Of a DNA stretch of 64,000 bases, positions 11,431 through 62,620 are shown in pieces. The DNA lies in assembly GCA_017432565.1 (NCBI GenBank), contig JAFRIW010000022.1, positions 1-64,000 on the forward strand, given 5' to 3'. The DNA comes from Lachnospiraceae bacterium. Its GTDB lineage: Bacteria > Bacillota > Clostridia > Lachnospirales > Lachnospiraceae. The notes under the pieces are model-generated. The model searched no databases, was not told where the DNA came from, and worked only from the letters and a program-made list of their open reading frames with translations. The position numbers were made by a program, and so were the translations under genes. The stretch's first letter is position 1; the number at the start of each line of letters is the position of its first letter.

Positions 11431-11484
11431 CGATTGTTGGACAGTGTTTTATCATGTATCGTTACGGTGGGAGGTGAACCGGCA

Positions 11485-12381
11485 GTGAAACAATCTTCGC
11501 TAGGATCCTATATCCGCTCCCTTCGGACACAGAAAAGACTGACCCAGCAGGCACTGGCCGATCAGCTGGGCGTCACGGACAAGGCGGTCTCGAAGTGGGA
11601 GCGAAATCTTTCATACCCTGATATTGCATTATTCCCGGCTCTGGCACGCATTCTGGACGTGACGGTGGACGAGCTGCTCGGTGCGTGTATAGATGACAAT
11701 AAGCCGACGAGACTCGTGCGGCTGTATGACCTGACACAGGACATCCGGACGCCGCTGCATATTCTGCTCGGCTGTGTGGAACTGGCAGAGGCGGACTTAA
11801 AGGATACGGAGCGGGTCGCCCGGTATCTGAAGATCATCCGGGCTTCCGGAGATTACCTGCTGAAGGCGCTGCAGAACGAGGGGATTGATCACGCCTCTCT
11901 GGGAGGAGCGATTGAGGAGGAGGCTGAGTCGTATCAGAGCACGTCGGGCCGTTATGATTTTTCCGGCAGGCGGATTCTGGTGGCGGAGGATATAGCCCTG
12001 AACCGCGAGATCGCAGCCGGCATTTTAAGTCAGACCGGGGCGGAGACGGATTTTGCCGAAGACGGGCAGGCCTGCCTTGAGAAAATCAAAGCTGCTCCGG
12101 CCGGGTATTATGACATGATTCTGATGGATCTGATGATGCCGCGGATGAACGGCGTTGATGCAGCTGCGCGGATTCGTCAGCTTGAGGATCCGGTCAAGGC
12201 GTCCATTCCGATCATCGCCATGACAGCCAGTGTCAATGAGAAAGAGCGCAGTGCGGCAATTGAGGCCGGAATGAACGCGTTTACGGAGAAGCCGGTTATG
12301 GTGGACAGTCTGTTCACGCTGATGCAGCAGTACCTTCCCCGGTCATCGGAAGACGACCGGAAACCGGCGGCAGATGCATGA
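11485..12381 (+). CDS. XRE-HTH regulator with degenerate HisKA motif and receiver domain
   Basis: This 298-residue protein has three parts. Residues about 5-62 form a Cro/C1-type HTH (TQQALADQLGVTDKAVSKWE). Residues about 80-130 look like a histidine-kinase dimerisation helix: TQDIRTPLHILLG at 84-96 copies the SHEIRTPL H-box, but Gln85 replaces the phospho-accepting His. No ATPase domain follows. Residues about 162-290 are a full receiver domain with acidic pair Glu168/Asp169, phospho-acceptor Asp215 (LMDLMMP) and Lys269 (TEKPV). The GTG at 11485 was chosen because GGGAGG lies ten bases upstream; a TTG frame from 11434 has no such site. It is divergent from a MATE exporter. It would be a phosphorylation-gated transcription factor, but its kinase is not in the window. 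Confidence 0.8.
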   Translation: MKQSSLGSYIRSLRTQKRLTQQALADQLGVTDKAVSKWERNLSYPDIALFPALARILDVTVDELLGACIDDNKPTRLVRLYDLTQDIRTPLHILLGCVELAEADLKDTERVARYLKIIRASGDYLLKALQNEGIDHASLGGAIEEEAESYQSTSGRYDFSGRRILVAEDIALNREIAAGILSQTGAETDFAEDGQACLEKIKAAPAGYYDMILMDLMMPRMNGVDAAARIRQLEDPVKASIPIIAMTASVNEKERSAAIEAGMNAFTEKPVMVDSLFTLMQQYLPRSSEDDRKPAADA

Positions 12382-22787: not shown

Positions 22788-22854
22788 AGTCACGGGGACA
22801 GGTCCACTGACTCCCTTTGGAAAAAGGGAGTCAGTGGACCTGTCCCCGGTGACT
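22788..22854. repeat. Long near-perfect palindrome (REP/MITE-like), probable bidirectional terminator
   Basis: A 31-base left arm (22788-22818) and a 32-base right arm (22823-22854) are reverse complements except for one missing C, with a GGAA loop. The arm core includes GGGGACAGGTCCACTGACTC, a type of sequence seen in dispersed intergenic REP elements associated with RAYT-type transposases (recalled resemblance). It sits between two convergent genes and would stop transcription from both. Confidence 0.7.
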
Positions 22855-41016: not shown

Positions 41017-41109
41017 GCTGTCCGTATACTGCCAGTCAGTGTCCTTCCGTCACACTGCTTCCTTTCTGTACCATCATAACAGTTTGCGGCAAAAAAGGAA
41101 CGCTCAGGG

Positions 41110-41148
41110 AGCAAAATCTGACAGAATCGGTCAGATTTTGCTTTTTTT
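41110..41148 (+). terminator. Perfect 13-bp hairpin with T-run
   Basis: AGCAAAATCTGAC (41110-41122) and GTCAGATTTTGCT (41130-41142) pair perfectly around a seven-base loop and run into T residues to 41148. It points toward the GH10 gene although no upstream plus-strand gene needs terminating, so it may be an attenuator or insulating element. Confidence 0.65.
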
Positions 41149-41200
41149 AAGGAAAAGATTCCTTGTACAAAATCGTTTGAAAACAGGATAAAGACGAAAA

Positions 41201-41214
41201 TCTAAGCGCTTACA
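41201..41214. promoter_or_regulatory. cre-like catabolite control box
   Basis: TCTAAGCGCTTACA matches the CcpA consensus TGWAANCGNTNWCA except for one base and contains the palindrome TAAGCGCTTA. It lies 160 bases before the GH10 xylanase start. Confidence 0.6.
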
Positions 41215-41303
41215 TTTTTGATCTTGTAAAAAGTGCACAAAAGTCAGACGGAATATTTGGTACTCAAATCGCAATTTTTGAAAAAGCAGGTGCAAGAATT
41301 GGG

Positions 41304-41319
41304 AAGTAAACGTTTACTT
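41304..41319. promoter_or_regulatory. LacI-family operator palindrome
   Basis: AAGTAAACGTTTACTT is a perfect 16-bp palindrome with the central CG typical of LacI/GalR-family sites. It lies 55 bases upstream of the GH10 start, where it would overlap or flank the promoter. No LacI-family gene is in the window. Confidence 0.65.
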
Positions 41320-41373
41320 TACGCCCTAAAATTAACATAGACTAATCTCAGGGTACCCTGTCGGAGGTCCGTA

Positions 41374-58297: not shown

Positions 58298-60094
58298 TCA
58301 GATCCGCATCTGAAGCACGTTGATCCCCATCATGTTCTGATACTGAATGTCCCGCGCAATCTGATAGATCATGCGGATGCCGATATTCTTCGCGGGATCC
58401 GACGGATCCCTGAGCTCTTTCCGTGTGCCCGGATCGAAGGGCACGCAGTCGTCCTTGATGCGCAGAATGATGTCATCATTCTTATAGACCACACGCACAT
58501 CGATGGTGTGGCTCTTTTTGTCTTTGGTATAACCGTGATCAACGATGTTGCCGGCCATTTCCTCCAGCACGAGGCCGGAGAGATAGGATCTGCGCTCGTC
58601 GATTCCTTTGCCGAGGCAGAAGTCCTGGACCTGCCGGGAAATCGTGACGACCTCGTGCATCTCCCGGACGGACAGATCCAGCCGGTCTTCTGCCGGTGCG
58701 CCGAAATCCTCCGGGATCACCATCAGCTCGTCCATGGTCTTCGGGAAGCGCCGGTTCATGAAAATCGAGTAGACAAGGACCGTCAGGTCTGTCACCACAC
58801 CGTTCAGGATATTGGCGATGTAAGCACTGTTCATGCCGATCGAACGAATGAGCAGGGCCGTAAAGCCGGCTACGCAGACGACGCCGTCCAGCACGGACAG
58901 AAGATTGACCAGGAAGTTCTTTCCGCTCGCCTGGGCATAGGCGATGAAGTGCATGCAGATAACGGAGAAGGGCATACACAGCGGCAGAAGCCGGAAGGCC
59001 CAGACGGTCATGTCATAGACCGGTTCTGAGGGATCCTTGAAGAAAATCAGGGTCAGGGGTACGGCGAGCGCCGAGAGCACGATGGACAGAAGGCACTGAA
59101 TCGGCACGAAGCGCCTGAACATGATGCGGAACAGGTCGGTCAGTGTCTGCCGGTCTTCTTCGCCGATGCTGACGCCGATCAGCATGCGGGAGACCGCGAC
59201 CATGCCCAGCGGAACCGCCCAGAAAATTGCCAGCATATTGTTGGCGGCGGCAAAAGCCGACACGCCGTCACTGCCCACATAAGCCTCAATCAGCTTGTTG
59301 ACGATCAGGCCCCTGGCGGACTGGCACAGGTTGCTGAGCGCGCCGGGCAGACCGATGGAAAGAATGATGAGCATTTCGGCAGCTTTCGCAAGGCGGAACT
59401 TGATCTTCAGGTGAGCGCTTCCGGTAAAGAAATACTGTGCCTGGACGGCAAACAGGATCCAGAGGCCGACGGACGAAGCCAGGGCCAGTCCGAAGATCCC
59501 GAGATGCAGGACACCGACCAGCAGGAAGTTGAGCACAAGACTGGAAACAGCGTAGACGATGCTCGCGTAGACAGAGAGCTTCTCCTTATGCTCCGTGAGC
59601 AGGTAAACCGGCATCTGGTTACCCAGCATGAGGGGCAGCACACCGAAGGCCTGTCCCAGCAGGTACTGATTGAAGAGGGGGCGTACTGCTTCGTCCGTCA
59701 CCAGAAAACCGGTCAGGTTGAAAGCCCCCATGATCACCAGCGACACGATAAAGATGACGGCGATGACCGCGGCCAGCAGAAGACTCGTGGAAAAGTTTTC
59801 CTGCAGCTTTTCCTGGTCGTTCTGTCCCAGATATCTGCCGCACAGAATACTGCACCCGCCGGTGAGAATGATGCTGACCGCGCCGACCAGCATGGAGACG
59901 GGCCAGTAGACACCGACGGCACTCATGGCATCCACGCCGAGAAAATTCGTCGCGAAATAACTGGAGATCATGCCGTTCAGCATGCCAACCCCGATTGTCA
60001 GAATCTGGATGGGCAGCAGGCGGAAAACAAGCTTCCGGAGCATGACGGAACCGGAATCCCGGATTTTCTCCTGTATATTGTCCTGTATATTCAT
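58298..60094 (-). CDS. MATE transporter fused to RsbW-like HATPase domain
   Basis: This 598-residue protein carries a complete MATE-type transporter of about twelve helices (about 20-465), followed without a frame break by a cytoplasmic ATPase domain of the RsbW/SpoIIAB kind (about 475-598). The ATPase shows the N-box EEMAGNIVDHGY with Glu511/512 and Asn516, the G1 motif IKDDCVPFDP with Asp548/549, and the G2-like KNIGIRMI. Such domains phosphorylate STAS proteins and bind sigma factors. The ATG at 60094 follows AAGGAGG; an upstream in-frame ATG has no site. It is divergent from a SpoIIE phosphatase, the natural opponent of an RsbW kinase. The transported substrate is unknown. Confidence 0.85.
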   Translation of the reverse strand: MNIQDNIQEKIRDSGSVMLRKLVFRLLPIQILTIGVGMLNGMISSYFATNFLGVDAMSAVGVYWPVSMLVGAVSIILTGGCSILCGRYLGQNDQEKLQENFSTSLLLAAVIAVIFIVSLVIMGAFNLTGFLVTDEAVRPLFNQYLLGQAFGVLPLMLGNQMPVYLLTEHKEKLSVYASIVYAVSSLVLNFLLVGVLHLGIFGLALASSVGLWILFAVQAQYFFTGSAHLKIKFRLAKAAEMLIILSIGLPGALSNLCQSARGLIVNKLIEAYVGSDGVSAFAAANNMLAIFWAVPLGMVAVSRMLIGVSIGEEDRQTLTDLFRIMFRRFVPIQCLLSIVLSALAVPLTLIFFKDPSEPVYDMTVWAFRLLPLCMPFSVICMHFIAYAQASGKNFLVNLLSVLDGVVCVAGFTALLIRSIGMNSAYIANILNGVVTDLTVLVYSIFMNRRFPKTMDELMVIPEDFGAPAEDRLDLSVREMHEVVTISRQVQDFCLGKGIDERRSYLSGLVLEEMAGNIVDHGYTKDKKSHTIDVRVVYKNDDIILRIKDDCVPFDPGTRKELRDPSDPAKNIGIRMIYQIARDIQYQNMMGINVLQMRI

Positions 60095-60165
60095 GGCGGC
60101 CTCCTTCTGCAGCGGTATCTGAATGATCATTCTTCAGAAAAAGGATTATATTGAAATTCAATCTG

Positions 60166-60197
60166 ATTATACAAAAGACGGCACTTTTTTGTATAAT
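60166..60197. promoter_or_regulatory. Mirror-image overlapping divergent promoters
   Basis: ATTATACAAAA (60166-60176) and TTTTGTATAAT (60187-60197) form a perfect 11-bp inverted repeat. On the plus strand TATACA (60168-60173) and TATAAT (60192-60197), 18 bases apart, make a promoter toward the SpoIIE gene. On the minus strand TATACA (60190-60195) and TATAAT (60166-60171) make the same promoter toward the MATE-ATPase gene. The two cannot be occupied together. Confidence 0.65.
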
Positions 60198-60247
60198 ATT
60201 CTGTAGTCTGCCCTGCGGCTGAGAAAAAGAAGCGGTGGAGAGGAAAG

Positions 60248-62620
60248 ATGTTTCTGACCGATATTGCCAACGGCACATTGATTGTAAACTGTGCGGCGAT
60301 CTTTATCCTGTTCGGGATATTGACCTATCTCGCATTGATCAAGAAAAACGATCAGTTTCAGGATTTTCTGCTGATCGGTGCCGTTTCTGCGGTCACATTG
60401 ATGGCCACATGTATTGCCTTCATATCTGTCCTGGAGGTGAGTTCCATCTCCGGAGCGTCGCTGGTCATGGGTGCCGAAACACTGAAACAGCTCTGCGTCC
60501 AGCTGTTTGCATATCTCTTCGGAATGTTCCTGCTCTGCCAGGTGGGAGAAGAGGAAACCGTCCGGAAGAGATGGAAACAGATCAGCGTTCCTTTTGTGGT
60601 ATTCTGCGTGATTATTCTCGGGAATCTGTGGGGACATTATCTGTTCTATGTGGACAGTGCAGACAACTTTTACGTTACCACGTATCTTTACATCAGCCTG
60701 AGAGTTCTGCCGGCCATCATGTTTTTCTATGTGCTGGTGAAACTGTGGCCGACGACGAAGACGCTGGTCGTGACCTACCTGATCCTGCTGATGACCCGGA
60801 TCTATTTCGCCTATGCGCTGCAGGATATATCCTGTTCATCGCTGTTTCTTTCCATTGCCATCCTGTATACGCTCGGATGTTTCCGGATCCGGACGATTCT
60901 GTTCCAGGTCGGAACGATTATTCTCCTGCTTTTCTCCCTCATGGCCCTTTTTGTGGGAAATTTTGTGACGGTCTCCGCGTTCTCTTCTTTCCTCAGTACA
61001 ATCAGTGATGCGCATTCGTCCGAGATGTATGCGGTCACAGAGGTGATGGACCGGTACGAAGCCATGCCGTGGCTGATGGAATACTGGCAGCGCAATGCAA
61101 GGCGCATTAAAATCAACCGATACGCGGATAATGAAAGACTCTATGCCACGCTGTCGAAAGACAACGTGCGGCGTGTCACGGTGGAAGAGGTGGAGCGCCT
61201 TTCTCCGGAACTGCAGTATCTGTTTGCCAATGAGTGTTACATCCGGATCGCTGAGGCTTATGATGCCGCGATGAAGGATCTGTCCATGAATGAACTGTTT
61301 CTGATCGTCCCGGAGCGCGCGGACCGCGCACTGGTCATTTTTGACGGACGCAGGAATGACGACGGAAGCTACCGGCTCGGTGAAATGGTGGATCTGCGCA
61401 GTCTGGAAAAAAGCTGGAACAATTACAGCATCGCTTCTTCGCAGAATTACATGAACTGGACCTGGCTGCGGTTCACTGAGAAGGATGAGTTCGGCTTTCA
61501 TCTGGATTATGTATACAGCGATGACCGTGAACCTGCCTATCTGTGTGATAAGATCCGCAGCGGTGAGGTCTATGCGCAGATGTCTGCCGCAGAGAACTTC
61601 AGACGGCAGGTTCTGGTGTTCTTCGTTGTTCTGGTAGTGGTCGTCCTGATCATTCTGTATATCGCCCTGGTCAAACCGCTGATTCGCATGAGAAGATCCC
61701 TGAACAGCTACCGGAAAGACAAGGATACGGAGAAACTGACGGACGGACTCTCCGGGATCACTGTGCGCAACGAGATCGGAATGCTTGCGGAAGAGTTTTC
61801 CGCCATGGCGCAGGAAATGGAGCACTATACGGAAGAGGTGGCGGAGCTGGCGGGAAAGCAGGAGCGTGTCAACACGGAGCTGCGGATGGCTTCTCTTATC
61901 CAGGAAGCAGTGCTGCCCAGCACTTTCCCGGCATTTCCGGACCGGACCGAATTTGACCTGTACGCGATGATGGATCCGGCCAAGGAGGTCGGCGGCGATT
62001 TCTATGATTTCTTCCTGATCGATGATACGCATCTGGCGATTCTGATCGCGGATGTCTCGGACAAGGGCGTGCCCGCGGCACTGTTCATGATGTCTTCGAA
62101 AAACCTGATCAATTACCGGGCAAAACAGGGCGGAACGCCGGGAGAAATCCTCACGGAGATCAATAACCAGATCTGCAGCTCATCCGTGACGGAAATGTTC
62201 GTCACTGTGTGGATGGGCATTCTGGACACGGCAAGCGGCCGGATGGTGTGTTCCAACGCGGGTCATGAGTTCCCGATCCTCAGGGGCGAAGACGGTGTAT
62301 TCCGGGTCTACAAGGACTCCCACAGCTTTGTCGTGGGCGGCTATGAAGGGATCCGCTTTAAGGACTATGAGCTGGAGCTGAAGCCGGGCGATGCGATTTT
62401 TGTCTATACGGACGGCGTGCCGGAGGCAAGTAACAGTGCCCAGGAATTTTACGGACTGGAGCGGCTGGAGAAAGCGCTGAACAGCGTTGCCCTTGCTCCG
62501 CCGGAGGAGATCCTGAAATCAGTCCGGAAGGATATCGAGGCGTTTGTTCAGGACGCGGAGCAGTTTGACGATCTGACCATGCTGTGCCTGGTCTATAAGG
62601 GAAACGGAGAACAAGCCTGA
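60248..62620 (+). CDS. Multi-TM SpoIIE/PP2C phosphatase with HAMP domain
   Basis: This 790-residue phosphatase starts with about seven membrane helices (about 10-245). A predicted extracytoplasmic region follows (about 250-452), then one more helix (about 455-478), a HAMP-like linker (about 480-530) and a PP2C/SpoIIE domain (about 555-785) with the metal-binding stretch EVGGDFYDFF near 580, ADVSDKG and EQFDDLTML. It would sense a signal and dephosphorylate a STAS-domain protein. GGTGGAGAGG precedes the ATG. It is divergent from the MATE-RsbW fusion, and its stop is followed directly by sbcD. The catalytic half is close to that of the phosphatase at 6534-8702, but the sensor is different. Confidence 0.9.
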   Translation: MFLTDIANGTLIVNCAAIFILFGILTYLALIKKNDQFQDFLLIGAVSAVTLMATCIAFISVLEVSSISGASLVMGAETLKQLCVQLFAYLFGMFLLCQVGEEETVRKRWKQISVPFVVFCVIILGNLWGHYLFYVDSADNFYVTTYLYISLRVLPAIMFFYVLVKLWPTTKTLVVTYLILLMTRIYFAYALQDISCSSLFLSIAILYTLGCFRIRTILFQVGTIILLLFSLMALFVGNFVTVSAFSSFLSTISDAHSSEMYAVTEVMDRYEAMPWLMEYWQRNARRIKINRYADNERLYATLSKDNVRRVTVEEVERLSPELQYLFANECYIRIAEAYDAAMKDLSMNELFLIVPERADRALVIFDGRRNDDGSYRLGEMVDLRSLEKSWNNYSIASSQNYMNWTWLRFTEKDEFGFHLDYVYSDDREPAYLCDKIRSGEVYAQMSAAENFRRQVLVFFVVLVVVVLIILYIALVKPLIRMRRSLNSYRKDKDTEKLTDGLSGITVRNEIGMLAEEFSAMAQEMEHYTEEVAELAGKQERVNTELRMASLIQEAVLPSTFPAFPDRTEFDLYAMMDPAKEVGGDFYDFFLIDDTHLAILIADVSDKGVPAALFMMSSKNLINYRAKQGGTPGEILTEINNQICSSSVTEMFVTVWMGILDTASGRMVCSNAGHEFPILRGEDGVFRVYKDSHSFVVGGYEGIRFKDYELELKPGDAIFVYTDGVPEASNSAQEFYGLERLEKALNSVALAPPEEILKSVRKDIEAFVQDAEQFDDLTMLCLVYKGNGEQA

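Follow-up and report, generated by a model that had tools for sequence, protein, structure and literature searches.

Divergent promoters that lie back to back and overlap form a classical category, in which one promoter has its -10 element where the other has its -35 region, and steric exclusion is expected. Bidirectional promoters with a shared -10 element have been described by Warman, Grainger and colleagues, with starts 10, 18 or 23 bp apart, and these often serve divergent, functionally linked genes (PMC12825309, PMC10268837). Competition at bidirectional promoters has been documented in E. coli, where little of it is seen at basal activity, and where a -35 is missing, AT-rich DNA preceding the -10 can make up for it (PMC12825309). 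Among signalling systems, the SiaA/SiaB/SiaC partner switch of Pseudomonas aeruginosa sets a membrane PP2C phosphatase against an RsbW-like kinase (PMC7647112). The locus described here, which resembles each of these in part, lies near the end of the window (the whole stretch of 64,000 nt that was analysed) and is composed of two divergent genes and, in the gap between them, an inverted repeat at 60166-60197 (Table 1). The repeat reads ATTATACAAAA GACGGCACTT TTTTGTATAAT, and its arms are complementary at 11/11 positions around a 10-bp spacer, so that the perfect 11-bp repeat claimed in the preliminary description is confirmed by the sequence.

Table 1. Coordinates of the features of the divergent locus (positions in the 64,000-nt window)
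Feature	Coordinates	Strand	Remarks
MATE-type transporter fused to RsbW-like HATPase_c_2	58298-60094	-	Pfam MatE 4.7e-24, HATPase_c_2 9.5e-13
Second candidate minus-strand -10, TATAAT	60145-60150	-	not exact in G012
Left arm, ATTATACAAAA	60166-60176	none	holds minus-strand -10; 11/11 identical in G012
Spacer between arms, GACGGCACTT	60177-60186	none	5/10 identical in G012, 1 bp longer there
Right arm, TTTTGTATAAT	60187-60197	none	holds plus-strand -10; 10/11 identical in G012
Membrane protein with C-terminal SpoIIE/PP2C phosphatase domain, SiaA-like	60248-62620	+	Pfam SpoIIE 2.2e-47

The two genes had been proposed to encode a kinase-type and a phosphatase-type protein, and the predicted HATPase_c_2 and SpoIIE domains were indeed found, with their motifs conserved. 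HATPase_c_2 scores above the Pfam cut-off in the MATE fusion protein, and its ATPase motifs (EExxxN, DDCxPF and NIGIR) are conserved in 14 relatives. A PDB search with this domain gave no match. The SpoIIE/PP2C protein contains the motifs GGDFYD, ADVSDKG, YTDG and FDDLT, matches PDB 6k4e at 2e-8 and reaches 1.6e-20 with the NCBIfam SiaA model, a value below the cut-off of that model. Both start codons follow ribosome-binding sites that are suitably spaced. The start of the MATE gene is probably the ATG at 60094 (60094-60096 region), the second in-frame start of the ORF, and not 60130, because AAGGAGG precedes this ATG and the gene of the related genome G012 starts at the same codon, which would make 60095-60247 the real intergenic gap.

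The predicted domain content of the pair fits a partner switch, since it includes a PP2C/SpoIIE phosphatase and an RsbW-type HATPase domain (with predicted kinase activity). No STAS-domain antagonist is encoded beside the gene pair; the genome contains two STAS genes on other contigs, C36 and C57, and seven SpoIIE genes. The STAS domain encoded on C36 (L112 5492-6673) is fused to an APH-type phosphotransferase (kinase) domain, and its gene adjoins one that codes for a SpoIIE-HATPase fusion. Elsewhere in the window, 11434-12381 (+) codes for an unusual protein that combines a helix-turn-helix domain, a HisKA-like segment and a response-regulator receiver.

Each arm of the repeat contains an exact TATAAT, at 60192-60197 on the plus strand and at 60171-60166 on the minus strand, and these are the top-scoring promoter candidates of the gap. 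The two -10s do not overlap; they lie 26 bp apart (start to start), point away from each other and fall within one polymerase footprint. TATACA is found 18 bp upstream of each TATAAT, giving 10/12 consensus matches on both strands; as -35 elements these hexamers are weak. TATACA shares bases with the opposite strand's -10 as read in reverse complement, so the symmetry by itself places this hexamer on both strands, and the proposed TATACA -35 with its 18-bp spacer results largely from the repeat. Thus, in the geometry first put forward, the TATAAT on each strand stood, being exact and kept in G012, whereas the -35 and its spacing did not, the spacing being 19 bp in G012.

We read the repeat as two back-to-back, fully overlapping promoters for the primary sigma factor, one for each divergent gene, with a probability of about 0.72. 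Each arm would supply the -10 of one promoter and cover the -35 region of the other, and transcription is predicted to start at around 60204 (+) and 60159 (-), 45 bp apart. This distance is well inside one polymerase footprint, so two polymerases are unlikely to occupy the DNA at once, and mutual steric exclusion is likely; we infer promoter activity, start sites and exclusion alike. Exclusion would probably matter only once one direction is strongly active, whereas at low activity both genes would simply be weakly expressed. The additional TATAAT at 60150-60145 could be an alternative promoter for the MATE gene, with a start at around 60138, in which case the overlap would be weakened, not abolished. 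Directly 3' of the predicted plus-strand start, the stretch 60209-60217 (TGCCCTGCG) is identical in G012 and may be an element of the 5' leader.

The preliminary description had named loss of the repeat from relatives that keep the gene pair as evidence against it. In the collections searched, the divergent pair was found in a single relative, G012, where a short contig carries it and protein identities are about 70-76% (67.5% for the MATE N-terminus, 70% for the phosphatase), and this one relative keeps the repeat, in the form ATTATACAAAA-N11-TTTAGTATAAT. Both TATAATs are exact there, so the proposal of divergent promoters over the same DNA holds up in the only orthologous pair found. The arms are identical at 21/22 positions, compared with 74/129 in the remaining gap (Fisher p = 0.0002, an indicative value, as the alignment of the gap is approximate), and the CAAAA/TTTTG positions outside the -10 hexamers are kept at 9/10, compared with 57% for the rest of the gap. 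With a repeat spacer of 11 bp, G012 does not keep the TATACA/18-bp geometry, and its minus-strand hexamer is TATACT. Most relatives of the MATE-ATPase protein lack the phosphatase neighbour; those in G031, G016, G028, G001, L071 and L074 (27-57% identity) have neither the same neighbours nor the repeat. When 396 other genomes of the family were searched with the N-terminal half of the phosphatase, none gave a match at 1e-20 and, judging from these searches, the gene pair looks confined to two species among the genomes covered.

In the window, the sole match to the repeat at ≤3 mismatches is the repeat itself (0 expected), and when the 117-bp gap was shuffled 3000 times by dinucleotides, a perfect arm of at least 11 bp (loop 3-30) arose in 6 cases. 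A background sample of 20 stretches (456 kb) contained 35 divergent gaps of 40-400 bp, which would probably correspond to about 200 across the 2.88-Mb genome. At this density one such repeat per genome is unsurprising; the repeat is locally unusual but, by length alone, not remarkable genome-wide, and its length alone is modest evidence. Its conservation in G012 is the stronger evidence. Facing -10 elements also occur elsewhere, in line with the promoter reading: this genome has 11 sites of the form ATTATA-N10-36-TATAAT where the reversed control has 3, and a simple longest-ORF gene call puts 5 of the 11 into divergent gaps; ATTATAC-N12-24-GTATAAT is present at 16 places in the genus (4 for the control), about five of them in divergent gaps, that of G012 included. 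Among the facing-TATAAT sites, 60166-60197 has the longest uninterrupted symmetry. At C34:67442-67468 (L090 1501-1527), a near-symmetric facing promoter pair, ATTATAACACA-N5-TGTGCTATAAT, is flanked by genes for a phage-type integrase and an AI-2E transporter.

Other inverted repeats were noted in the window. A perfect 13-bp one at 41110-41142, AGCAAAATCTGAC-N7-GTCAGATTTTGCT, lies in the divergent gap 41017-41373 and is operator-like. In a convergent gap, 22793-22848 forms a hairpin with 26-bp arms (CGGGGACAGGTCCACTGACTCCC...); similar large palindromes on contig C50 (L113) and GGGACGGTTCTTGTGACA motifs in L009 suggest, together with this hairpin, a dispersed family of REP-like repeats.

A role of the repeat at 60166-60197 as an RNA hairpin was rejected: its AU-rich RNA would fold into one (-10 kcal/mol, z -3.8), but both transcripts are predicted to begin beyond it, and no terminator is called for at a place where two genes begin. 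Counting against overlapping promoters are the weak -35 elements with their altered spacing in G012, the finding of only one orthologous pair and the second minus-strand TATAAT, which could serve the MATE gene; nor does such an arrangement require the symmetry beyond the -10 hexamers. These 5 bp past each hexamer, conserved as they are, and the perfect 11-bp arms, whose centres are two helical turns (21 bp) apart, would suit an operator bound by a dimeric or tetrameric regulator; the half-sites, TTTTGTATAAT, would then contain the -10s by coincidence, and one protein would control both genes. We consider this unlikely, given that no regulator gene is present among the five neighbours scanned and that the longer spacer of G012 (11 bp instead of 10) shifts the phasing of the half-sites. 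An operator of a shared regulator was rejected because no second copy was found in 62 genomes of the genus (≤3 mismatches, fixed spacing), and thus no regulon is seen; a dedicated local regulator would be compatible with this result. The same positions bear on a quite improbable reading, in which two independent promoters merely lie close together and their consensus -10s and flanking A/T runs mimic a longer repeat. The shuffles and the probable number of divergent gaps agree with chance symmetry, as do the mismatch and the longer spacer of G012, where exact symmetry is not kept, but the conservation beyond the hexamers, well above that of the remaining gap, speaks against it.

Local inversion had been thought conceivable, although it was expected to leave the sequence nearly unchanged; as a flip of the short spacer, which an inverted repeat flanks, by a recombinase, it finds no support and has a negligible probability. 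A flip would alter only these 10 bp and leave both promoters in place, and no recombinase is encoded by the five neighbouring genes scanned. In known invertible promoters the promoter is placed between the repeats, whereas here the promoter elements sit within the arms. It had also been suggested that the promoter itself could set the ratio of the two products. That the symmetric promoter was selected for mutually exclusive expression of the kinase-type and the phosphatase-type proteins of one partner switch, with the orientation of the polymerase as a bistable or ratio-setting element, seems to us very improbable. Little competition occurs at basal activity in E. coli (PMC12825309), so a ratio-setting role is possible but not to be assumed.

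Overlapping divergent promoters remain the simplest and our preferred reading, and at this locus promoter competition in Lachnospiraceae could be studied in a clean and almost symmetric natural setting, where the two products have opposing predicted activities. Should exclusion set the protein ratio, promoter geometry would be part of a signalling switch; if it does not, the locus would simply illustrate how neatly divergent promoters can be compacted. Compared with SiaA/SiaB/SiaC (PMC7647112), the ATPase here is one domain of a fusion with a MATE transporter, the two genes diverge, a STAS target is not adjacent and Pfam detects no HAMP domain. As in the promoters of Warman and colleagues (PMC12825309, PMC10268837), pseudo-symmetric -10 sequences lie on opposite strands and one orientation of the polymerase would block the other, but here there are two separate -10s with predicted starts 45 bp apart, and no -10 is shared. 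The arrangement is a well-ordered instance of a promoter type already known and not a new switch; its unusual symmetry, with perfect arms of 11 bp, sets it apart from classical back-to-back divergent promoters.
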